A stretch of 64,000 bases of DNA from a virus. Positions within the stretch are counted from its first letter, which is position 1. Every line of letters begins with the position of its first letter. The stretch is taken from the IMG/VR virus record IMGVR_UViG_3300036761_002481, positions 1-64,000 of that record. One strand, 5' to 3'. Below the pieces are notes generated by a model. It saw only the letters and a list, made by a program, of their open reading frames with translations. It searched no databases and was not told the DNA's origin. A program made the translations under genes and the position numbers. Shown in pieces: positions 2,566-57,476 of this stretch.

Positions 2566-3143
2566 GCGCTCGCCGTCCTCGCGTGCTGCTCGACATCGAC
2601 GGCGTCGTCGGAGACTTCATCTCGAGCGCGCTCGAGATCGTCACCGAGCTCGGCGTCGCCGGCCTGACCGCCGACGGCATCGTCGACGCGCGGATGGAGA
2701 ACCTGCTTCCGAGCGAGCACCGCGAGACGTTTCTCGACCGGCTCCGGCAGCGCGGCTTCTGCACGCGGCTTCGTCCGTATCCGGGCGCGGTCGAGTTCGT
2801 TCGCGAGCTGCAGCGCAGGCACGACGTCGCGGTCGTCACAACAGCGATGCCCGGCTCCGAGACCTGGGCACACGAGCGCGAGAACTGGCTCGCCGAGACG
2901 TTCGATCTCCGGACCGTGATCAGCACGCGCCACAAGGACTGGATCGCGGGCGACTACTTGATCGAGGACACGATCGCGAACGCCGTCGCTTGGACGCACG
3001 CGCATCCGCACGGCGTCGCGATGCTGATCGATCGGCCCTACAACCGCGGCTACACGTTGATCGACCGCATCGTTCGTTACCGGAGCCTGCCGGCCGTGCT
3101 CGGCGCGATCGACCGGTCGGTCGCCGAACGTTCTCTCGCGTAA
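2562..3143 (+). CDS. 5'(3')-deoxyribonucleotidase-like HAD phosphatase
   Basis: 193 residues of the HAD superfamily. Motif I is DIDGVVGDF (nucleophile Asp near residue 11, acid Asp near 13), motif II is VVTTAMPGS and motif III/IV is DYLIEDT. The arrangement matches 5'(3')-deoxyribonucleotidases, which remove phosphate from deoxynucleoside monophosphates. With MazG-like (45042) and ThyX (47191) genes it would help adjust dNTP pools during infection. It overlaps the upstream gene by ATGA. The superfamily is secure; the exact substrate is inferred. Confidence 0.8.
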   Translation: MSARRPRVLLDIDGVVGDFISSALEIVTELGVAGLTADGIVDARMENLLPSEHRETFLDRLRQRGFCTRLRPYPGAVEFVRELQRRHDVAVVTTAMPGSETWAHERENWLAETFDLRTVISTRHKDWIAGDYLIEDTIANAVAWTHAHPHGVAMLIDRPYNRGYTLIDRIVRYRSLPAVLGAIDRSVAERSLA

Positions 3144-28502: not shown

Positions 28503-28822
28503 TCGTCAACGTCAAAGGGCTCGATCGAGCCGAGCTGCTCGCAGGGCTCTACAACGCGACGCACGCCGTCGGTCTCGGCGTCCGCGACGATCTTCGACGC
28601 GACATGACCGTCGACGAGGCGCGGCAGCGACTCCACGAGCGTCGGTCCGAGCTCGGACCGCTTCGTCGCCACGGACTGCTCGCGGCCTTCGACTGGGTCG
28701 CCGGCCGTCCGATCAAGTGCGACGTCGACCAGGACGAGATCGACTTCGACGTTTACGACGACGTGGCCGGTCCGGGGACCGGTGCGAGAGTCGTACAGCA
28801 ACTGCGGGAGAAACAGAGATGA
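28499..28822 (+). CDS. Hypothetical protein
   Basis: 107 residues from a GTG overlapping the previous stop. Residues 3-85 (GLDRAELLAGLYNATHAVGLG) are a compact mixed domain seen in many small phage proteins of unknown role. An ATGA overlap leads to the next gene. Confidence 0.6.
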   Translation: MIVNVKGLDRAELLAGLYNATHAVGLGVRDDLRRDMTVDEARQRLHERRSELGPLRRHGLLAAFDWVAGRPIKCDVDQDEIDFDVYDDVAGPGTGARVVQQLREKQR

Positions 28823-29178
28823 CCGAAGCGCGCCGCGCGATGATCGTCCGAAAGAAGCAGTGCAAAGCGTGCCCCTGGCGGCGAGACGTTCTGCCCGCCA
28901 AGGAGATCCCGAACGGCTACTGCCGAGCGAAGCACGCGAACCTCGATAGAACGATCGCGAAGCCGGGAGTGCTGTCGACCAGCGACACGTTGCGGCTGAT
29001 GGCCTGCCACGAGTCGCCGGTCGGCCGCGAGTATCCGTGCGTCGGCTGGCTCGCGAACCAGCTCGGGCCGGGGAACAACCTGACGTTGCGGCTTCTCGCT
29101 CGCGACGGTCGCTTCAGCGGGATCCGGACCGTCGGCGCGCAGTGCGAGACCCTGCAAGAGACGCTGAGGCCGGAATGA
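28819..29178 (+). CDS. DUF6283-like Cys protein
   Basis: 119 residues. CKACPWRRDV near residue 15, IPNGYCRAKH, MACHES, and PCVGWLANQLGPGNN follow the Cys/His order of DUF6283-type proteins found in phages and actinobacteria. The Cys and His probably bind a metal or Fe-S cluster; function unknown. Confidence 0.7.
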   Translation: MTEARRAMIVRKKQCKACPWRRDVLPAKEIPNGYCRAKHANLDRTIAKPGVLSTSDTLRLMACHESPVGREYPCVGWLANQLGPGNNLTLRLLARDGRFSGIRTVGAQCETLQETLRPE

Positions 29179-32622: not shown

Positions 32623-32804
32623 TGGCGAGCAAGCCGCGAGACTGCTGCCGATGTGGATTCGTCACGTTCCACGCGCAGCGCTACGTCTACACGCCGAAGG
32701 GCGCGCGCGTCGACGCGAGGGTCTGCTCGCGGTGCGAGATGATCACGATCGAGTGCGAGGTCGCTACTACTCCGCGATCGCCCGAGCCTGCATCGTCTCG
32801 ATGA
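32622..32804 (+). CDS. Small zinc-ribbon protein
   Basis: 60 residues. CCRCG near residue 8 and CSRCE near 36 form a ribbon. It is the last + strand gene before the reverse operon, whose last gene overlaps it tail to tail by 38 bases. Confidence 0.6.
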   Translation: MASKPRDCCRCGFVTFHAQRYVYTPKGARVDARVCSRCEMITIECEVATTPRSPEPASSR

Positions 32805-33057
32805 GCTGCTCGATCCGCGACCGAAGCGCTTGAGCGGCGCGCGCGATGTCGTGCTTCGTCCGCAGGTTGAGCGGAACGAGATCGACGACGAAGTCATCCT
32901 GCGCGAACCGCGGGCCGTTCCTGAGCAGGACGCGGAACGTCGCGAACGTCGTCTCGGGCTCGAACCGCGTGCACATGATCACCGCGGCGCGATCCGAGAC
33001 GAGCGTTTCGAGCTCGGCAGCGAGCGCGTCGAGCTTCCAGGTCCAGGAGCGGTTCAA
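32767..33057 (-). CDS. Hypothetical protein, last gene of the reverse operon
   Basis: About 96 residues starting at TTG 33057, which overlaps the upstream gene's stop (TTGA). Residues WTWKLDALAAELETLVSDRA and DDFVVDLVPLNLRTKHD suggest a small alpha/beta fold. No family recognised. The longer frame upstream is a shadow. Confidence 0.55.
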   Translation of the reverse strand: MNRSWTWKLDALAAELETLVSDRAAVIMCTRFEPETTFATFRVLLRNGPRFAQDDFVVDLVPLNLRTKHDIARAAQALRSRIEQLIETMQARAIAE

Positions 33058-33428
33058 TTGAGTCTCCCCGGGGAGACCGGAGCCGTGTCGCGGTCGGCGT
33101 CGGCTGCTCGCCGGTCGGCGACTACGTGAGCGGCGGTCATCAACCGTTCGTGCAGGCAGCTGGCGCAGAACGGGTTCTCTTGTCGAGAGCGAAGAGACCC
33201 GCCGCGCTTGCTGCCGCAGTACGGGCAGATCCCCGTCCGGATGTCGCGCAACCGCTCGCACGACTTGAAGAGCGCAGCGGCGGAACGCTGAAGCAGCCGA
33301 GCTTCGTCGATCAGCCGATCCGAGGTCTCGCCGCTCGCGTCTCGGAAGTCGCGCTGCGTTCGCGCGCAGTGGTAGGTGTCGGCCGTCAGCAGCTGGAGCC
33401 GCAGTTCCTCGGCGTAGTCCGGAGTCAT
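33054..33428 (-). CDS. Zinc-ribbon hypothetical protein
   Basis: 124 residues. A helical N-terminal part is followed by CPYCGSK...CASCLHERL, a zinc ribbon near residues 71-96. Just upstream of the ATG lies an inverted-repeat motif also found before the gene at 35956, so it likely has its own promoter or operator. Its 3' end contains palindrome copy 4. Confidence 0.6.
   Translation of the reverse strand: MTPDYAEELRLQLLTADTYHCARTQRDFRDASGETSDRLIDEARLLQRSAAALFKSCERLRDIRTGICPYCGSKRGGSLRSRQENPFCASCLHERLMTAAHVVADRRAADADRDTAPVSPGRLN
33062..33077. repeat. 16-bp palindrome, copy 4
   Basis: The core without further pairing. It lies in the 3' end of the reverse-strand gene at 33054-33428, in a different frame from copies 2 and 3 (coding APVSPGRL). 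Confidence 0.8.
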
Positions 33429-33435
33429 GGACCGA

Positions 33436-33460
33436 AACCTACCCCCGACAGGGGGCGAAT
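33436..33460 (-). promoter_or_regulatory. CCCCTgtcgGGGGTagg inverted-repeat motif, site 1
   Basis: On the reverse strand, CGCCCCCTGTCGGGGGTAGG sits just before the ATG at 33428. About 30 of 39 bases match the site at 35960-35990. Both stand directly before reverse-strand starts. Confidence 0.6.
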
Positions 33461-33469
33461 GGAAGAAAC

Positions 33470-34639
33470 TCAGCCGAGCTTGTGCGGTCGAAGCGCGATC
33501 GGGGCATCTTCCGGGCCGCGCCAGTACGGCTCGACGAAGATCCGCTTCCGCTCGCTCCGACCGACGCCGTGCGCCTGTCGCTTCCAGTGCCCGGCGACGA
33601 TCCCCTGGACCGAGAGCGCGCTTCGCTCGCCGCGCGAGTACTCGGCGACCGCCGCGCGGAAGTCGCAGCGGACCGACGTCGAGAGCTGAAAGACTCGACC
33701 GATCGGGAGCGCCGAGCTTCGACCGGAGCCGGAGCTCGACCGCTGCCGATGTGACTTCCCGATCGGGCGATAGCTCGTCTTGTCGGTCATCATCAGCGAG
33801 ACGTTCGCGAAGAGACGCGAGAGCAGGAAGATCGAGCGCGTGTCCGCGTCGGTCGTCTCGAGAGCGACCGCCTTCGCGTAGTTCTCGTGACCGGTCCCGT
33901 AGACGACGCCCCCGTCGAGGTCGACGCCCTCGACGGCGCCGAGCTCGCGGATCGTTCGCTTGACCGACCAGAGCGAGCACGGAGCCGCGGTCGCGATGAT
34001 CGCGTAGCCGAGCATCTCCTCGATCGGACCGTGCGCGCCCGGTCCGCCACCTTCGACGAACGGACCGGCGACGCGCCCGGCAAGCATGAACGCGAGCTCG
34101 TGCTGCTCGCCGTCGACCGCGGTCGAGAACATCCCGCTCGGGAGCTCGATCTCGAACACGGACCACGGAAGCTCGGCAGCGTCGACGAGATCGTTCGGGA
34201 CGCGCGTGACGAGCAGCGACGCGGCGAGCTTGTGCCCGACCTGAACGACCGGGAAGCCGTTCTCGGCCCACTCCGGAAGCATCAGGAGCCGCGCAAGGCT
34301 GTCGAGCTTGACGATCGAGTAGCCGATCGTTCGATGGAACACGCGCGCTGTCTCGAGCGCTCCGAAGCGCTCGACTCGCTCGACGATCGAGAGCTTCGTC
34401 GCGTCGCGTCCGAGGCTCGCGCGCGCCTGCGCGACGATCCGCTCGATCGAGAGACGAACGCAGTCGAGGCCCTCGCGGTCGCTGCCGGCGATCCGTCGAT
34501 AGGCGCGCCAGCGAGCGTCGTTGCCGATCGAGTAGTCGCGGCAGAGCTGCCAGAGAACGCTCGCGAGGTCGCGGAAGTACTCGCGCTGCGTCCGGACCGG
34601 CACCGTGATCCGGCCAGCGTCGTCGAAGATCACCGTCAC
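33470..34639 (-). CDS. Hypothetical protein ending in a HWKRQAHG/VEPYWRG tail
   Basis: 389 residues from GTG 34639 (GTGA overlap). No enzyme motif is visible. The C-terminal region (GHWKRQAHGVGRSERK then FVEPYWRGP) is a pattern I have seen in phage proteins of unknown function. Largest gene of the reverse operon. A C-terminal nucleic-acid-binding element is possible but unproven. Confidence 0.6.
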   Translation of the reverse strand: MTVIFDDAGRITVPVRTQREYFRDLASVLWQLCRDYSIGNDARWRAYRRIAGSDREGLDCVRLSIERIVAQARASLGRDATKLSIVERVERFGALETARVFHRTIGYSIVKLDSLARLLMLPEWAENGFPVVQVGHKLAASLLVTRVPNDLVDAAELPWSVFEIELPSGMFSTAVDGEQHELAFMLAGRVAGPFVEGGGPGAHGPIEEMLGYAIIATAAPCSLWSVKRTIRELGAVEGVDLDGGVVYGTGHENYAKAVALETTDADTRSIFLLSRLFANVSLMMTDKTSYRPIGKSHRQRSSSGSGRSSALPIGRVFQLSTSVRCDFRAAVAEYSRGERSALSVQGIVAGHWKRQAHGVGRSERKRIFVEPYWRGPEDAPIALRPHKLG

Positions 34640-34971
34640 GGCTCCTCGACGTGCTCGCCGCCGACGCAGCAAGCGCAGGACTCGTCGGTGCCGAGCATCA
34701 CGCGAGCGGCTCGGTAATCGCGCTCGCTCGCTTCCTGCGCCTCGACGACGTCTTCGGCGGCGAAGGTCGCGACCTCGATGCCGGCGATCTCGACGAGCCG
34801 GTAGCAGTCCGCCAGGGCCGACCGCGCGCGCTCGCTGCCGACCGCGGCCGCTTCCTGGAACTCGGTCGCCATCGCGTCGAAGACGACCCGCGCGCGAGCG
34901 TCGTCGGTCGCAGCGAGCGAGCGGGCCCAGGTCCGGAGCTCGGCGAACGTTCTCGGCACCCGGCGGCTCAT
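34636..34971 (-). CDS. Hypothetical helical protein
   Basis: 111 residues, almost all helical and acidic, with a C-terminal CACC near residues 99-102. ATGA overlap upstream and GTGA overlap downstream show translational coupling in the reverse operon. Confidence 0.6.
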   Translation of the reverse strand: MSRRVPRTFAELRTWARSLAATDDARARVVFDAMATEFQEAAAVGSERARSALADCYRLVEIAGIEVATFAAEDVVEAQEASERDYRAARVMLGTDESCACCVGGEHVEEP

Positions 34972-35696
34972 CCGAGCTCTCTCCTGACGATCTCCGCTCG
35001 GACGACCTCGACGAGCCGCTCGGCGGCGCGCGCTCGGTCGAGCTGGTGCGCTGAGAGCTCGGCGCGCCCGACGGCGAGAAGCGCGCAGAGAAAGCCGTCG
35101 CTGAACGTCCGGTCGAGCTCCGGCGAGAACCAACCGCGGTGCGAGTCGCGCCAGAACGTCGGCTCGTAGATCGAGTCGTCGAGCCAGTCGACCGTCCGCG
35201 CGAACGCGCGCGCGTCCTGAACGCGCGCGTCGCTAGCTTCCGGCTCGACCGCCATCAGGCGTCGCGCGAGTCGTCCGAGAGTCGCCGCGAGAGCCTGCTC
35301 GCCGGCCACCCATTGCCGGATCGTGAGGTTGAGCCCGACGACGCGCTCGAACCGGACCGACCCGACGGCAGGCGAGCCGGTCAGCCAAGCGTCGTAGAAA
35401 GAGCGAGCGAGCTCGCTCGCTGCCGAAGCGCGCGCCTGCGCTATCTCCGGCGCAGCGAGCTCGCGGTTCTCGTACCGAACCTGCGCCGCGACCTGCTTCT
35501 CCGGCGACGGAAGCGCGCGGTCGACCGACCAGGTAACGCCGAAGACCGTTCGCTCGCCGAAGCGGGGAGGACTGCTCAACCGCAGCACGCCCCAGGTACC
35601 GAGACGACCGCAGCGAGCGCACTGCGCGACCGTCGACCCGCCGATCTCGAGCATCAGGTGCGGTTCCGGATGCGCGCATGCGAGGTCCATCGTCAT
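34968..35696 (-). CDS. Hypothetical protein with Cys-pair N-terminus
   Basis: 242 residues. CAHPEPHL...CARCGRLG near the N-terminus may bind zinc, followed by a mostly helical region. It overlaps the small membrane protein gene by ATGA. No family recognised. Confidence 0.6.
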   Translation of the reverse strand: MTMDLACAHPEPHLMLEIGGSTVAQCARCGRLGTWGVLRLSSPPRFGERTVFGVTWSVDRALPSPEKQVAAQVRYENRELAAPEIAQARASAASELARSFYDAWLTGSPAVGSVRFERVVGLNLTIRQWVAGEQALAATLGRLARRLMAVEPEASDARVQDARAFARTVDWLDDSIYEPTFWRDSHRGWFSPELDRTFSDGFLCALLAVGRAELSAHQLDRARAAERLVEVVRAEIVRRELG

Positions 35697-35956
35697 CGGC
35701 GCTCACCTGAGCCAGCGACCGCCACCGACGAACCGGAGACCGGCGGCTCGACGAAGCACTCGCGCCGGATCCGAACGAGCTCCGCCGCGACGCGGTCGAC
35801 GTCGACCGAGCACGCGCTTACCGACCGCGGCCGAACGACGCCGCGTTGCCAAGACAGCACCGCTATGCCGAGCAGCACGGCGATGACGAGCAGCACCGCG
35901 ACGAGCGCGACGCGCGCCACCGGTCGGTCGTCGGAGTCGTAGGACAACGAGCCCAT
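35693..35956 (-). CDS. Small single-pass membrane protein
   Basis: 87 residues with one hydrophobic segment (residues 13-34: VARVALVAVLLVIAVLLGIA) and a charged C-terminal domain with two Cys. First gene of the reverse operon, behind an inverted-repeat motif. Positional analogues in temperate phages act in exclusion or signalling, but this is speculative. Confidence 0.6.
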   Translation of the reverse strand: MGSLSYDSDDRPVARVALVAVLLVIAVLLGIAVLSWQRGVVRPRSVSACSVDVDRVAAELVRIRRECFVEPPVSGSSVAVAGSGERR

Positions 35957-36287: not shown

Positions 36288-36307
36288 TCCGGAGACTTTC
36301 CGGAGAC
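36288..36307 (+). repeat. TCCGGAGAC repeat pair, left arm
   Basis: TCCGGAGAC at 36288 and 36299, 11 bases apart (one helical turn), about 55 bases left of the tRNA fragment. The same 9-mer occurs to the right, at 36525. Possible integrase arm sites. Confidence 0.55.
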
Positions 36308-36327
36308 CTGATTTTCGACGCCGGAAG

Positions 36328-36347
36328 TAGGCGTTCGCTAACGCCTA
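36328..36347. repeat. Perfect hairpin next to the tRNA fragment
   Basis: TAGGCGTT-CGCT-AACGCCTA: 8-bp arms with a 4-base loop, 13 bases before the tRNA fragment. Could bind integrase, host factor or form RNA structure. Confidence 0.6.
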
Positions 36348-36360
36348 TTCGTGACGACCA

Positions 36361-36410
36361 TCGGCCTGTCACGCCGGAAGTCGCGGGTTCGATCCCCGTT
36401 CGCCCCGCCG
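36361..36410 (+). other. attP: attP core: 3' half of tRNA-Asp(GUC)
   Basis: The 50 bases fold as the anticodon stem-loop (36361-36377, anticodon GTC at 36368), a 5-base variable loop, a T arm (GCGGG, TTCGATC, CCCGT), the 3' acceptor strand TCGCCCC, discriminator G (normal for tRNA-Asp) and CCG where CCA is expected. The D arm and a matching 5' acceptor (GGGGCGA) are absent in the 80 bases upstream. Temperate phages that use tyrosine integrases carry such a fragment so that integration restores the host tRNA. The integrase gene is 4 kb away. Confidence 0.82.
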
Positions 36411-36524
36411 AAAGACAGAGTGGTCACGACGAGATAGGAGCTGCCGTGGCGACAGAGCGCGTCGACGACGTTCTCCGGAGAGGTTCGCGATTCCAGCCGA
36501 GATACCAGCTGTCTCGGCCACCGT

Positions 36525-36554
36525 TCCGGAGACTTCACCGGAGACCTCGGAGAC
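36525..36554 (+). repeat. CCGGAGAC repeats, right arm
   Basis: TCCGGAGAC at 36525, ACCGGAGAC at 36537 and TCGGAGAC at 36547, about 115 bases right of the tRNA fragment; TCCGGAGAG also at 36474. Matches the left-arm repeats in sequence and orientation. Confidence 0.55.
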
Positions 36555-36677
36555 CGGCGTCGACGCCGCGATCGCTGGCACGAGCCGTTCCGCGCACCCC
36601 CTCCCCGGGGGTGGGATTTTCAGCGGCCCGGCGCCCGCTGCCCGGTCGCCCCCCTAGCTCTCCGGCTACGATAGATC

Positions 36678-36723
36678 CGCATGCGGGCGGCTCGGTTACT
36701 AGAGATACGCAAGCGGGCGGCTC
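36678..36723 (+). repeat. 16-base direct repeat CGCATGCGGGCGGCTC
   Basis: Copies at 36678-36693 and 36708-36723 differ at one base. They are 30 bases apart (start to start). May be a second set of integrase or excisionase sites, or an operator pair. Confidence 0.5.
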
Positions 36724-36825
36724 AAGCGGCGGGCCGGCTCCGGTTTCGATCGGTCTAGCTAGTAACGCGCGAGCCGATCGGTTCGTCGCTCGCGCTTCCG
36801 GTTCTCGCGGTCCTATCGTCCGGCG

Positions 36826-37290
36826 ATGGTCGCCGGTCGTCGGTGTCGAGGTTCCGACTTGAGGCGCCGCTCGCGCTTCGTTCGCCGCGCAGCGGATCCG
36901 GTTCCTCCGGCGGTCCGGTTTCCGGCCGAGCACGGCTGGCGCGTCGTCTCGCTCGACGAGAGACCGCCGCCGGCCGGAACGACCGCGATCAAGATCGTCG
37001 TCGGAGTCTTCGTCGACCGCGTTACCTGGTGGGGGCTCGAAGCTCCGCTCGTCGTTCCGGATCTCGAGCGCTTCGTCGTAGCTTCGTCGCTCGGCGACGG
37101 TGCGGCTCTCGTTCCGCTCTTCGGGCCGGCCGGCGAGCGGCTTCCGGAGTCGTCGCGCGTTCTCGAGATACTTCCGCCGAGCGACGGTAGGTCCGAGCGC
37201 TCTCTCGTCGACGCCGCGTTCGCCTGGCTCGAGCGCCGGAGCGAGACCGGGCCGACGACGCCGGGCGGCGTCCGGAGCCGACCGCGATGA
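36826..37290 (+). CDS. Hypothetical protein
   Basis: 154 residues from ATG 36826; TTG at 36858 would drop an Arg-rich lead. The core (WRVVSLDERPPP, AIKIVVGVFVDRVTWW, LEAPLVVPDL) is a mixed alpha/beta domain. A five-codon ORF (37287-37304) bridges its stop and the next start by ATGA-type overlaps, so coupling is likely. Confidence 0.55.
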   Translation: MVAGRRCRGSDLRRRSRFVRRAADPVPPAVRFPAEHGWRVVSLDERPPPAGTTAIKIVVGVFVDRVTWWGLEAPLVVPDLERFVVASSLGDGAALVPLFGPAGERLPESSRVLEILPPSDGRSERSLVDAAFAWLERRSETGPTTPGGVRSRPR

Positions 37291-38410: not shown

Positions 38411-38989
38411 ATGGGCGACGTTCAACCGACGGTTTCGCAGGATCCGTACGCCGCCTACGAAGCGACCGCCGACGGCGTCGTCGCGGAGGTCATCGGCGGC
38501 GTGCTGCACGTCCAGCCGGCGCCGAGCCCGATGCACTCTCGAGTCATCGGCCGGCTCTATCGGCAGCTCGGCGGCTTCGACGGCGGCGACGCTCCGGGCG
38601 GCTGGCAGATATTCATCGAGCCGGAGATTCGCTTCGCGCGGTTCGAGCAGCGGCCGCAGATCGTCGTTCCGGACATCGCCGGCTGGCGCGTCGAGCGGCT
38701 TCCGACGATGCCGACCGCTTCGCACTTCTCGATCGAGCCGGACTGGGTCTGCGAGGTTCTCTCGCCGTCGACCGCGCGGAAAGATCGCGCGACGAAGATG
38801 CCGCTTTACGCCACGGAGGGCGTCGCGAACGCTTGGCTCGTCGACCCGGCGCTGCAGACCGTCGAGTCGTACAGGCTCGTCGACGGCTACTGGTTGCTGC
38901 TCGCGGTTCTCGTCGGCGACGAGCGCGTTCGCGTTGAACCGTTCGAGTCGGTCGAGCTCGACCTCGCTACGCTCTGGGCCTCTCGCTGA
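38411..38989 (+). CDS. Uma2-family endonuclease
   Basis: 192 residues. DPYAAYEA at the start, VVPDIAGWRVERLP, EPDWVCEVLSPSTARKD and NAWLVDP are the usual Uma2 (DUF820) pattern of PD-(D/E)xK nucleases; the Asp, Glu and Lys of the active site are present (PDIAGW, CEVLSPSTARKDRATK). In bacteria such genes are often multicopy and of unknown target. Here it follows a promoter-like motif and precedes an HTH gene, so a defence or lysogeny role is possible. Confidence 0.82.
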   Translation: MGDVQPTVSQDPYAAYEATADGVVAEVIGGVLHVQPAPSPMHSRVIGRLYRQLGGFDGGDAPGGWQIFIEPEIRFARFEQRPQIVVPDIAGWRVERLPTMPTASHFSIEPDWVCEVLSPSTARKDRATKMPLYATEGVANAWLVDPALQTVESYRLVDGYWLLLAVLVGDERVRVEPFESVELDLATLWASR

Positions 38990-39009: not shown

Positions 39010-39351
39010 ATGGCTCGCATACGAATCAACGCTCTTGCGCGCGCTTCGGTGACCGCCGCCGAAGCGGCTGCTCGCTTCGACTCGGAGCTCGGCTCGCCTG
39101 CGACGTTCGGCGCCGCGCTGACCGCTCTCCGCGAGCTCGAAGCCGGTGCTTCGATCGCGTCGTTCGCTCGCCGGCTCGGAGTCTCTGCCGCGCATCTCTC
39201 GGACGTCGAGCGCGGCCATCGTCACGTCTCGGCGGAGCGCGCCGCGGAGTGGGCCGACAAGCTCGGTCGTCCGCGCGAGCTCTTCGTTCGGCTCGCGCTC
39301 CAGCGCTTCGTCGACGAGCTCGGTCTTCGCGTTCGCATCGAGGCAGCTTGA
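39010..39351 (+). CDS. Xre-family HTH regulator
   Basis: 113 residues. ASIASFARRLGVSAAHLSDVE is a canonical Xre/Cro-type helix-turn-helix, followed by GHRHVSAERAAEWADKLG. Small HTH proteins in the attachment region often act as phage repressors or antitoxins; here the neighbour is a Uma2 nuclease gene. The operator is not known; candidates are the CCCCT..GGGG sites and the 16-bp palindromes. Confidence 0.75.
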   Translation: MARIRINALARASVTAAEAAARFDSELGSPATFGAALTALRELEAGASIASFARRLGVSAAHLSDVERGHRHVSAERAAEWADKLGRPRELFVRLALQRFVDELGLRVRIEAA

Positions 39352-40211
39352 TGGCTCGGCGCGTGATCGTCGAGGTCGACGTCGCGGCGGAGTCGGAGCC
39401 CGACGACGATCGCGAGCTTCGGCGCGCTCGCTTACCTGCTCGTCTGGTTCGTCGTTCGGCACGCCGACGGCTCCGCGCGCGTTCGCTTTCGCGGCGACGC
39501 GGCGACGATCGAGCGCACGTGCTGGCCGGTCTCTTCGAGACGGAGCCGTCGGTCGACATCGGAGCGCCTGACTACGCCGACGCTGCTCGCGAGATCGGTG
39601 CCGCGCTCCGGACGTTCGCCGAGCCCGAATGGTTCGATTCGTTTCGCGATCACGTCACCGGTTGGCTTCTCTCGTTCGTCGTCTACGACCGCTGGAGCGA
39701 TGGTGAGGGCGGCACGCTGAGCGACGACGATTCGTTGACGAGCGACACGCGGCTCCGAGTTCTCGAGATGATCTCCGGACTGATTCCGACGGTCGGAATG
39801 TTGGAGTTGTCCGAGGGCTACACGCTCGACGGAATCGGCGACGGAGCGACGACGCACTGCAAGCGGATGATCCGGCACGCGGTCCGGCAAGTGATCTGGT
39901 CGAACGAGATCGCGCGCTGCTGCATTTACGATCTCTACGACTCGCACGAGCTCGGCTTCGTCGCCGATCTTGCTCGTCGGAACAACATCTCGGTCCCCGA
40001 AGCGGTCGGCGCGACCGTGACGATGTTGAACGCGGGCGCGAACATGTTCGGCGTCGATGCCGATTACGCGATCGTCCGGAGCGGAGATTTCCGAGCGGTT
40101 CGCTTCGTTGAATCGCTTTGGAACCTGGTCGCCGCGAACCAACTGCTCGCGTTCGAGCACGATAAGTACGCTTCGGCGAACAAGATCAAGCGGAGGCGCC
40201 GAAAGCGATGA
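39351..40211 (+). CDS. Hypothetical protein with frame conflict in the N-terminal part
   Basis: 287 codons from ATG 39351 (TGATG overlap). Residues 1-22 (RRVIVEVDVAAESEPDDD) and from about residue 60 on (HVLAGLFETEPSVD, WFDSFRDHVTGWLLSFVVYD) are protein-like. Between them (39415-39515) this frame is Arg-rich while another frame reads GALAYLLVWFVVRHADGSAR. Two opposite one-base errors would give a smooth protein. No domain recognised; the C-terminus is basic. Confidence 0.55.
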   Translation: MARRVIVEVDVAAESEPDDDRELRRARLPARLVRRSARRRLRARSLSRRRGDDRAHVLAGLFETEPSVDIGAPDYADAAREIGAALRTFAEPEWFDSFRDHVTGWLLSFVVYDRWSDGEGGTLSDDDSLTSDTRLRVLEMISGLIPTVGMLELSEGYTLDGIGDGATTHCKRMIRHAVRQVIWSNEIARCCIYDLYDSHELGFVADLARRNNISVPEAVGATVTMLNAGANMFGVDADYAIVRSGDFRAVRFVESLWNLVAANQLLAFEHDKYASANKIKRRRRKR

Positions 40212-40582
40212 GCGACGACCTGGAGCAGCTCCTTACGAACGAAGACGTTGCGAGAGTGCTCCGCGTTTCGAGCAAACGAGCCTACGCGATCATGCGGCGC
40301 TGGCCGTTCCGCGTGCTGATCGGAACCGGTATCAAGCCGCTCGTCCGCGTGCGACGAAGCGACTTCGATGAGTGGTTAGAGTCGAGGGGAGACGCAGCAA
40401 CATGTCCATCAAGCTCAGGCGAACGAAAAAGTCTCGATACCTCTACGTCGAGGGGCGCGACTGGGAAGGTGTCGAGTATCGGCTCTCGACGGGTCAAACC
40501 GAAGAAGGGCCAGCCCTGCTCCGAGCCCGCCAGATCCAGCTTGAGAGATCGGTTCCCCGGACTAAACCTTACTCGCTACTGA
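40208..40582 (+). CDS. Excisionase/MerR-like HTH protein
   Basis: 124 residues; the first about 60 (LTNEDVARVLRVSSKRAYAIM, VRVRRSDFDEWLES) form a compact HTH of the helix-turn-helix 17/excisionase type. The rest overlaps the integrase gene by 181 bases and is Ser/Arg-rich, so the real protein may be shorter or the stop displaced. Placed directly before the integrase, it probably steers excision or represses int. Confidence 0.65.
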   Translation: MSDDLEQLLTNEDVARVLRVSSKRAYAIMRRWPFRVLIGTGIKPLVRVRRSDFDEWLESRGDAATCPSSSGERKSLDTSTSRGATGKVSSIGSRRVKPKKGQPCSEPARSSLRDRFPGLNLTRY

Positions 40583-41772
40583 AGGCTTTCTCCGCGCTCC
40601 AGGACTACAAGAAGGTCGGGAAAAAGTCCGACGCGGAGCTCGAGATCGTGACGACGAAGAGCGAGCGCGTGATGGAGTACTTTGGTCCGGAGCGCGACTC
40701 GAACACGCTGACGCACGCCGAGCTGATCGGCTACGTCGAGCGCCGCAGGCTTTGCGAGATCGGCACGACGATCGACGGCGAGACGAAGTTCGTTTCGGAT
40801 TCGACGATCCGGAAAGAGCTCGACAAGCTCTTCGAAGCGCTCCGGCTCGCGAAGACCGACGGCAAGTTCGTCGGCGACGTTGACAAGCTCGCGCGCTCGC
40901 GTCGCGTTCTCGTTCGTTCTCGACCGCGAACGCGAACGCTGACCGAGGACGAGTTCGTGCTGCTCTACTGGGAGCTGCCGCGCAACCGCCAGGACTATCT
41001 CTTCAGCTGGGTGATGCTCGGCGCTCGATACGGCGAGCTCGAACGGATCGTGCCGGCGAGCATCGATCACGACAACCGACGCGTTTGGATCGTCGGGCAC
41101 AAGGGCGATCCGGAGTGGCGCGAGCGCTGGGTGCCGATCGGCGAAGAGATGTATCGACTGCTCTGCCGGCGAGCTGACCGCGTGAAGGCAGGCGAGCCGC
41201 TCTTTCCGGCTTGGGAGAACTCGAACGCGAACACGATGCTGAAGCGCTACTGCGCTCTGCTCGAGATCGCGCCGCTCTCGATCAACGACCTTCGTCGAAC
41301 GTTCATCACGTGGCACGGGATGTACGGGACGAGCGAGGCGGACATGAAGAAGCTCGTCGGACACTCGCCGGCATCGAAGATGGTCGAGCGCGCCTACCGC
41401 CAGCTGCCGGCAGACGCAGGTCGTCCGGCGATCGAGAGACTCCGCTTCGGCCTGACGCCGAACGACGCGATCGATGTTGGCGACGGCGTGAACGTCGTTC
41501 CGATCCGACCGCACGTCGCGACGCAGACCGTCGAGCAGCTCGCGGACGTCAAGCAGAGACGCGACCATCGAGAGAAGCTGCTCGACTGGCAGAGCCTGTC
41601 GCGCGAAGCGCTCGCGAAGCTCGTCTGGGCGAAGCCGGCTGACATCATCGCGCACGATTACGGGATAAGTGGAACCGCGGTCGCAGCGCGTTGCAAGCGA
41701 CTCGGGATCGACAAGCCGGGGAACGGCTACTGGCAAAAGCTCGAAGCGCGCGTCGGAAAGAAGACTTGGTGA
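40402..41772 (+). CDS. int: Tyrosine recombinase (phage integrase) with C-terminal HTH domain
   Basis: 456 residues. An N-terminal arm/SAM-like region leads to the catalytic domain: Arg in LGARYGELERI near residue 214, Lys in HKGDPEWRERW, NDLRRTFITW (Asn where His is usual), LVGHS, then Tyr in ERAYRQL near 333. The last 80 residues (WAKPADIIAHDYGIS, ARCKRLGIDKPGNGYW) form an extra HTH-like domain seen in other phage/bacterial proteins. It should recombine the attP at 36361 with host tRNA-Asp. ATG 40402 follows GGGGAG. Confidence 0.87.
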   Translation: MSIKLRRTKKSRYLYVEGRDWEGVEYRLSTGQTEEGPALLRARQIQLERSVPRTKPYSLLKAFSALQDYKKVGKKSDAELEIVTTKSERVMEYFGPERDSNTLTHAELIGYVERRRLCEIGTTIDGETKFVSDSTIRKELDKLFEALRLAKTDGKFVGDVDKLARSRRVLVRSRPRTRTLTEDEFVLLYWELPRNRQDYLFSWVMLGARYGELERIVPASIDHDNRRVWIVGHKGDPEWRERWVPIGEEMYRLLCRRADRVKAGEPLFPAWENSNANTMLKRYCALLEIAPLSINDLRRTFITWHGMYGTSEADMKKLVGHSPASKMVERAYRQLPADAGRPAIERLRFGLTPNDAIDVGDGVNVVPIRPHVATQTVEQLADVKQRRDHREKLLDWQSLSREALAKLVWAKPADIIAHDYGISGTAVAARCKRLGIDKPGNGYWQKLEARVGKKTW

Positions 41773-41849: not shown

Positions 41850-42638
41850 ATGACTCGTCGACGCTGGCGCTCGGTGATCGAGCAGCGCGCTTCGCTTCGA
41901 GCTCGCTTCCGGAGCGAGGGCGCACTCTGCGACGCTTTAGCCGCTAAAGCCCGCGGCGAGGGCTTCGTCGTTCACGCGGAGACGAGCGGCTGGGATCTGC
42001 TGCTCGTCGCGCCAGGCGGCGCTCAGGTCGGCGTGCAAGCGAAGCTGCGAGCGAACGTCGACGTGCTCGCGCAAGCGCTCGGATCGCCCTACGGAACGAC
42101 CGGGCCGGACTATCACGCCGTTCTCGTCGTCGACGCTCCGCCGCCGTTCCGCCGGCTCGCCACCGAGCTCCGCGTCACGATCGTCGACGGCGCTCGCGTC
42201 GTCGCAGACGCGCCGCTCGCGGAGTTCGTCAAACGCTCGCCGCTCTGGTCGCACGAGACCGCGGAGTGGGTGCCACCGATCGAGATCGCTTGCGTCGTCG
42301 GCGGTCGCTCCGGTCCGGTTCAGATCACACCGTGGAAGATCGCCGCGCTCCAACTCTGCCGACGACTCCGGAAGCGCGGCTGGGTCGCGAAGCGCGACTT
42401 CACGGAGCTCTCGATCTCGCCGACCTACTGGGTGACCGGCTCGAAGCCGCTCCTGAGAGTCGAGAAGAAGCTCGGGAAGGTGTTCCGCTATCATGCGACC
42501 GGCCTTGCGGCGCTCCCGGACGAGCGCTGGCCGGACATCGCAGCGGCGCTCGATCTACACCTCGGTGTACTAGATGAGCGGAGGAACGACGATGCCCCGC
42601 AGACGATCGTTGCTGGAGTTAGCAGCTCGCGCAGGTGA
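41850..42638 (+). CDS. Hypothetical protein with PD-(D/E)xK-like segment
   Basis: 262 residues. GALCDALAAKARGEGF, SGWDLLLVAPGGAQVGVQAKL near residues 25-70 has the D...QxK spacing of restriction-like nucleases. The second half has a winged-helix-like WKIAALQLCRRLRKRG. Nuclease activity is inference from a short motif. It follows the integrase and overlaps the next gene by 65 bases. Confidence 0.55.
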   Translation: MTRRRWRSVIEQRASLRARFRSEGALCDALAAKARGEGFVVHAETSGWDLLLVAPGGAQVGVQAKLRANVDVLAQALGSPYGTTGPDYHAVLVVDAPPPFRRLATELRVTIVDGARVVADAPLAEFVKRSPLWSHETAEWVPPIEIACVVGGRSGPVQITPWKIAALQLCRRLRKRGWVAKRDFTELSISPTYWVTGSKPLLRVEKKLGKVFRYHATGLAALPDERWPDIAAALDLHLGVLDERRNDDAPQTIVAGVSSSRR

Positions 42639-53262: not shown

Positions 53263-53531
53263 TCGGCGAGATCCTGCTTTACGGCTCTCGCCCCGTCGGC
53301 TACGGGCACGTCGTCTCGGTCGCCGGAAGGCGCGTCGACGAGCCCGGTCCGCCGCGAGAGCAGTCGGCTACCGAGGCGCTCTGGTCAGGCGTCGGCGAGC
53401 TGCTCGCGTCGACCGGAGCTCGGTCCGGACTCGTCGCCGTTCTAGACCTCGACGGCCGGCGCGTAGCGGTCGTCGACGTTGCCGACGAGGTGCCGTCCTA
53501 CGGCGGACTCGACTGGGTGATCGCCGCGTAA
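53259..53531 (+). CDS. Hypothetical protein with probable CTG start
   Basis: 90 residues. GEILLYGSRPVGYGHVVSVAG and LVAVLDLDGRRVAVVDVAD are beta-rich and protein-like. No ATG, GTG or TTG lies upstream of the conserved part in this frame; CTG 53259 overlaps the FIS-like gene's stop (CTGA). Function unknown. Confidence 0.6.
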   Translation: MIGEILLYGSRPVGYGHVVSVAGRRVDEPGPPREQSATEALWSGVGELLASTGARSGLVAVLDLDGRRVAVVDVADEVPSYGGLDWVIAA

Positions 53532-56759: not shown

Positions 56760-57476
56760 GTGGAAGGTTCGAGCCTGGGTCACGTGCCGGCGAGCGAGCG
56801 CTGGGAGTTCGACGAGACCGTCGCCGGAGTCTTCGACGACATGCTCGAGAGAAGCATCCCGCTCTACGCGGTGATGCGAGCGGCCGTTCACTCGGTCGCC
56901 AGGCGGCACGTCGTCCCGGGGGCATCGATCGTCGATCTCGGCTGCGCCCGCGGTGGCGCGCTTGCAAGCTTCGTCGAGGAGCTCGGTAGCGCGAACCGCT
57001 ACTTCGGATGCGACGTCTCCGAGCCGATGCTCGAAGCGGCGCGAGCGCGGTTCGCGCGCCAGGCCGGGATCGTCAGCATCGACAACGTCGATCTTCGGAC
57101 GAGCTACCCGGACGTCGGCGGCGCTTGCGTGACGATGGCCGTCCTGACGCTCCAGTTCGTGCCGATCAACTATCGGCAGCGAATCATGCGCCGCGTCTTC
57201 GACCAGACGCGACCAGGCGGCGCGTTCGTTCTCGTCGAGAAGGTGATCGGCGCCGGCGCCGGCATCGACGAGCTGATGGTCGACCTCTACCACGAGAAGA
57301 AGCAGGCGAGCGGCTACACCCGAGACGAGATCGACCGGAAGCGGCTCGCGCTCGAGGGCGTGCTCGTGCCCGTGACCGCTCGCTGGAACGAGGAAATGCT
57401 TCGGAGCACCGGCTTCCGAGAGGTCGACTGCTTCTGGCGCTGGATGAACTTCGCCGCCTGGCTCGCGGTGAAGTAG
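56760..57476 (+). CDS. SAM-dependent methyltransferase
   Basis: 238 residues from GTG. ASIVDLGCARGGALASF near residues 56-73 is motif I, CDVSEPMLEAA motif II and PGGAFVLVEKVIG motif IV. The family is like CmoA/tRNA-type and small-molecule methyltransferases (WEFDETVAGVFDDMLERSIP at the start) and is recurrent in phages. The substrate is unknown. Confidence 0.8.
   Translation: MEGSSLGHVPASERWEFDETVAGVFDDMLERSIPLYAVMRAAVHSVARRHVVPGASIVDLGCARGGALASFVEELGSANRYFGCDVSEPMLEAARARFARQAGIVSIDNVDLRTSYPDVGGACVTMAVLTLQFVPINYRQRIMRRVFDQTRPGGAFVLVEKVIGAGAGIDELMVDLYHEKKQASGYTRDEIDRKRLALEGVLVPVTARWNEEMLRSTGFREVDCFWRWMNFAAWLAVK

Follow-up and report, generated by a model that had tools for sequence, protein, structure and literature searches.

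The window, by which we mean the whole stretch of 64,000 bases analysed here, comes from a linear and incomplete virus fragment of 64,807 bases. The segment under study (36361-36410) lies in a non-coding stretch, with leftward genes (32767-35956) on one side and rightward genes on the other. To its left, the fragment encodes helicases, DnaB, a primase, a sigma-70 factor, a family B DNA polymerase (PolB), UvsX, SbcCD, a RuvC-like resolvase, and the large terminase. To its right lie the genes for an integrase, two C5 methyltransferases, ThyX, RadC, a ParB-like protein, the portal, a MuF-like head protein, and an XkdF-type head protease. A preliminary description of this DNA had placed phage genes on both sides of the segment, which agrees with the terminase, replication, and PolB genes on the left and the portal, MuF-like, and head protease genes on the right. 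PolB matches to haloviruses raised the idea of a halovirus, which was rejected because the proteins are not acidic and a sigma-70 factor is encoded. A methyltransferase gene (56784-57476) just upstream of the portal operon matches phrog_4752, annotated as tRNA methyltransferase, with an E-value of 3e-70. The features around the segment are as follows.

36288..36309, + strand: left pair of arm-type repeats, TCCGGAGACTT and TCCGGAGACCT (repeat search)
36361..36410, + strand: proposed attP common core, the 3' half of tRNA-Asp(GUC) from the anticodon stem to the discriminator G plus CCG, without the 5' half (alignment, blastn)
36361..36377, + strand: anticodon arm TCGGC-CTGTCAC-GCCGG, with the 7-bp loop (36366-36372) as predicted crossover and the stem as putative inverted core-type sites
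36474..36484, + strand: weaker, possible arm-type copy, TCCGGAGAGGT (repeat search)
36525..36547, + strand: right pair of arm-type repeats, TCCGGAGACTT and ACCGGAGACCT (repeat search)
39010..39351, + strand: HTH_3 regulator, candidate repressor (domain match)
40208..40582, + strand: HTH_17 protein, candidate excisionase (directionality factor), PF12728 with E 1.8e-7, overlapping the integrase gene by 181 bases
40402..41772, + strand: tyrosine integrase (profile matches), with an alternative ORF start at 40372

The segment had been described as folding into the anticodon arm, variable loop, T arm, 3' acceptor strand, and discriminator G of tRNA-Asp, and all these elements are present at 36361-36410. 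The anticodon arm is followed by a variable loop of five bases (AAGTC), the T arm GCGGG-TTCGATC-CCCGT, the 3' acceptor strand TCGCCCC, and the discriminator G73 at 36407, after which comes CCG. All ten stem pairs of the anticodon and T arms are standard, two G-T pairs among them. When the 3' half of tRNA-Asp carried by another contig was compared across the window, 41 of the 45 bases of the core were equal, against 30 at the runner-up place and a mean of 13.1 (s.d. 3.0) over all places. Phage tRNA-Asp genes match the core at 89.6% over 48 nt (blastn, E 1e-8). The folding energy of the core was uninformative (z -0.11). A second tRNA-like place at 53314 (30/45) is GC-rich sequence without Rfam support and was dismissed as a chance match. 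Just 5' of the core, a strong hairpin occupies 36325-36348, with a stem around TAGGCGTT-CGCT-AACGCCTA and an energy of -12.2 kcal/mol.

The D arm and the 5' acceptor strand had been reported absent, and three results point the same way: ARAGORN identified no complete tRNA in the window, the Rfam tRNA model, whose cut-off is 29 bits, scored only 19.1 over the core and fitted the D arm poorly, and neither the 5' acceptor strand GGGGCGA/G nor a D arm occurs within the 60 nt upstream of the core. A complete tRNA with a paired 5' acceptor strand upstream was looked for and not found. We also considered a remote or permuted 5' half, but the closest GGGGCGA (35982) runs into the T-stem complement and has no D arm. 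The segment is hence not a complete phage-encoded tRNA gene, which would have a D arm and a paired 5' acceptor strand, but a 3' fragment of a tRNA that includes the anticodon arm.

The core is flanked by the direct repeat TCCGGAGACYT, of which exactly three perfect copies (36288, 36299, and 36525) occur in the 64.8-kb record when both strands are counted, all inside 240 bp around the core. A fourth copy with one mismatch starts at 36537, so that the core has one pair on either side, with spacings of 11 and 12 bases. At the sequence level, direct repeats of arm type are thus found on both sides, and the layout of one pair per side would be the usual one for arm-type integrase sites. Four same-strand copies of any 11-mer with at most one mismatch, as present in the att region, were found in none of 709 sampled segments of 270 bases. 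A count of 11-mers that recur across the core gave 11 pairs, which was not significant in such GC-rich DNA, as the null reached up to 19. Because this cross-core count is not unusual, the claim of arm sites rests on the rarity and clustering of the repeat. In the same non-coding stretch, two tandem 30-bp repeats that are 83% alike (36663-36722) might represent an operator or further protein-binding sites. A gene for a Uma2-family endonuclease (38411-38989), whose best plasmid match is 47% identical and resides on a Bdellovibrio plasmid, lies between the core and the gene for the HTH_3 regulator.

The same phage encodes a tyrosine integrase, with matches to PF00589 (just above the cut-off), to phrog_1 (E 3.6e-24), and to a solved integrase structure (PDB 5c6k). 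The residues R209, K234, R298, H321, and Y332 are also found in the integrase of the nearest relative discussed below (G001). The HxxR box reads NDLRR, with Asn295 where His is usual, and this substitution is likewise kept in G001. The structural model of the whole integrase was poor (pLDDT 54.7) and too uncertain for a fold search; residues 1-50 were modelled with a pLDDT of about 70-80 as three strands and a helix, a predicted fold as in arm-binding domains. Residues of about 405-456 form a C-terminal extension that resembles the HTH end of HNH endonucleases and short rhizobial plasmid proteins. The preliminary description had located the integrase gene 4 kb downstream, and its start is indeed 4.0 kb downstream of the core. 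The attP site usually, if not obligatorily, adjoins the integrase gene, which is not the case here.

Searches of IMG/VR with the terminase, integrase, or DnaB as single queries did not retrieve relatives of this phage, which were found with the portal and PolB as queries. The nearest relative found, G001 (IMGVR_UViG_3300037869_000009, 107,034 bases), resembles the window phage in its portal (58% identity) and its integrase (40-44% identity; 44% over residues 4-345, E 3e-77), and it encodes a homologue of the HTH_17 candidate excisionase with the same overlap on the integrase gene. On the minus strand of G001, at about 39,197-39,247, we found TCGGTCTCTCACGCCGTAAACGGCGGTTCAAATCCGCCTGGGGTCGCCA, the 3' half of a tRNA with the anticodon CUC (Glu), where ARAGORN identified no complete tRNA, and this half is about 6.1 kb from the integrase gene. 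Read in the orientation of the core, the order in G001 is the core, the homologue of the gene at 36826, the HTH_3 regulator, the integrase and excisionase genes (inverted), the homologue of the gene at 41850, and the portal, which is the order of the window. The two phages are therefore alike in the homologous integrase, the HTH_17 gene overlapping it, the HTH_3 regulator, the portal, and the position of the tRNA 3' half, whereas G001 differs by its tRNA-Glu (CUC) half, the inverted excisionase-integrase pair, and an integrase without the C-terminal HTH extension. The separation of 4-6 kb between attP and the integrase gene is unusual, yet it is common to both phages. A rare repeat of G001, AAAGGGGGAA, is located at -74 and +102 from the core, with its 8-base centre nowhere else in the 40 kb read, although this lone pair was not significant by itself. 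Agreement between the two cores is highest in the anticodon arm, where 14 of 17 bases are equal; this would fit a crossover there, even though the anticodon arms of tRNA-Asp and tRNA-Glu resemble each other anyway. A protein encoded at 28717-29178, left of the core in the window, has a 61% identical counterpart in G001 (36416-36793) between the att site and the integrase gene, indicating rearrangement around the site.

The strongest evidence for an att site at this place is that two relatives carry a tRNA 3' half at the same position, derived from different tRNAs. We consider it very probable that the segment is the common core of attP, used by a phage tyrosine integrase that acts on the host tRNA-Asp gene. 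This interpretation, already put forward from a first reading of the DNA, has gained weight from the arm-type repeats nearly exclusive to the flanks of the core, the excisionase and integrase genes and the regulator downstream, and the parallel site in G001. Counted against it are the lack of any tRNA-Asp gene with this 3' half among about 85,000 species genomes, the 4-kb gap to the integrase gene, and the Asn in place of His in the HxxR box, though the last of these is found in G001 too. The attP described here is a further case of a well-known type of site.

It had also been claimed that this DNA is not an integrated prophage. What can be retained is that a simple prophage edge is excluded, because arm sites and phage genes are found on both sides; the site alone is no proof of DNA that was never integrated. 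At such a site, an excised circle, a packaged genome, and the junction of prophages in tandem are all alike. The last of these would mean that two related prophages occupy one tRNA-Asp gene in tandem and meet at the core, with the DNA integrated and the 3' half being a displaced att site. Phage genes on both sides are equally expected from such a junction, and tandem islands are known (PMC4383910). We nevertheless regard the tandem junction as very improbable: the gene sets to the left and right are complementary and not duplicated (the terminase on the left, the portal on the right), the two sides are alike in codon usage and in tetranucleotide composition (correlations 0.98), and gene order across the site is preserved in G001. 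Even a tandem junction would have an attP-type core at this site. The DNA is likely not an integrated prophage.

Slightly less probable still is that the segment is a chance pseudogene or fragment of tRNA-Asp without any role in integration, the real attP being elsewhere and nearer the integrase gene. The distance of 4 kb would be accounted for in this way, as would the outcome of the host search, in which neither a 45-mer of the core nor a looser pattern with six positions freed and the acceptor TCGCCCC kept had a match in about 85,000 species genomes. A chance fragment is hard to reconcile with paired repeats nearly exclusive to its flanks, with a different tRNA half at the same place in G001, and with the finding by Rfam of no other tRNA-like stretch in the window. 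Very unlikely indeed is a tRNA-dependent lysogeny. Phages of this kind leave the disrupted host tRNA gene unrepaired and make up for it with a tRNA gene of their own, of the same isotype, and their common core measures about 10 bp (PMC10865867). A core this short would be compatible with a host sequence that finds no match, and a tRNA gene could sit in the missing part of the incomplete record, but the whole 3' half is present here and ARAGORN identified no tRNA gene in the window.

Returning to the attP interpretation, the outcome of the host search might mean either that the host lineage is not among the genomes searched, or that the phage core departs from the host gene at positions where mismatches are tolerated, as happens in Boilgate. 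This subcluster K4 mycobacteriophage has a 43-bp attP core at tRNA-Lys with five differences between phage and host (PMC10865867); its host is known and its integration confirmed, whereas the site in the window is predicted from sequence. A closer parallel in layout is provided by the cluster J mycobacteriophages (Omega and BAKA), whose 44-bp attP core at tRNA-Leu extends from the anticodon loop to the 3' side and is flanked on both sides by pairs of 10-bp direct repeats (PMC3706429). They share with the window phage the span of the core, the paired short direct repeats, a tyrosine integrase with HTH genes just upstream, and a large genome with a central integration cassette. They differ in the distance between attP and the integrase gene (about 100 bp, compared with 4 kb in the window), in the tRNA (Leu instead of Asp), and in that their integration has been demonstrated.

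Halves of tRNA-Asp occur in other phages as well. Three unrelated viral contigs in IMG/VR (L010, L011, and L012) carry tRNA-Asp 3' halves with a CGCCCCG end and without a matching 5' acceptor strand, which match the core of the window at 40-42 of 45 bases. These halves are nearly identical to one another into the D loop and divergent 5' of it; unlike in the window, the tRNA identity thus extends further 5', into the D arm. An integrase gene lies within about 1 kb of the half in L010 and L012, and the integrase of the window had no match in any of the three contigs. Phages of more than one kind therefore make use of tRNA-Asp. The genome of the Myxococcus phage Mx8, which targets tRNA-Asp, contains no tRNA-Asp 3' half like the core of the window, the best ungapped match being 27/45. 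A 53.8-kb plasmid of Rhodoplanes serenus (L004) carries at 2998-3052 a lone tRNA-Asp 3' half that is 92% like that of the window over 48 nt. No gene is listed for the stretch around it, and this half is probably an att site, too.

Sites centred on the anticodon account for 2083 of 3919 catalogued tRNA-borne islands, about half (PMC4383910), and in the model for such sites the 7-base loop serves as the overlap and the stem as the inverted core sites (PMC8371274). In the phage of the window, the two inverted core sites bound by the integrase would lie in the anticodon stem, and its arm sites would be the TCCGGAGACYT repeats on either flank. Strand exchange with the host tRNA-Asp gene would then occur across the 7-bp anticodon loop, whereby the phage 3' half would join the host 5' half and rebuild a working tRNA-Asp, and the host's own 3' half would come to lie at the opposite end of the prophage. 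Excision is probably directed by the HTH_17 protein, whose gene starts just ahead of the integrase gene. Insertion into a host tRNA gene with its simultaneous repair is an ordinary route for temperate phages.

On the evidence of this site, a group of large phages that had not otherwise been characterised, equipped with a family B DNA polymerase, UvsX, SbcCD, and their own sigma factor, is probably temperate, and the core names tRNA-Asp as the gene that such phages should enter. The shortest way to the host would be through new genomes with a tRNA-Asp that carries this 3' half (CCTGTCACGCCGGAAGTCGCGGGTTCGATCCCCGTTCGCCCCG). As a tentative idea, which we hold to be possible though rather doubtful, the att site of this phage group might keep a fixed place 4-6 kb from the excisionase and integrase genes, with an exchangeable tRNA half, a constant integrase family, and the anticodon arm TCGGYCTSTCACGCCG as the part mainly read. 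If this were true, related phages could change their target tRNA by replacement of the core alone. The pair of relatives, one with an Asp core and the other with a Glu core, lends itself naturally to a comparison of the tRNA gene features that such integrases recognise.
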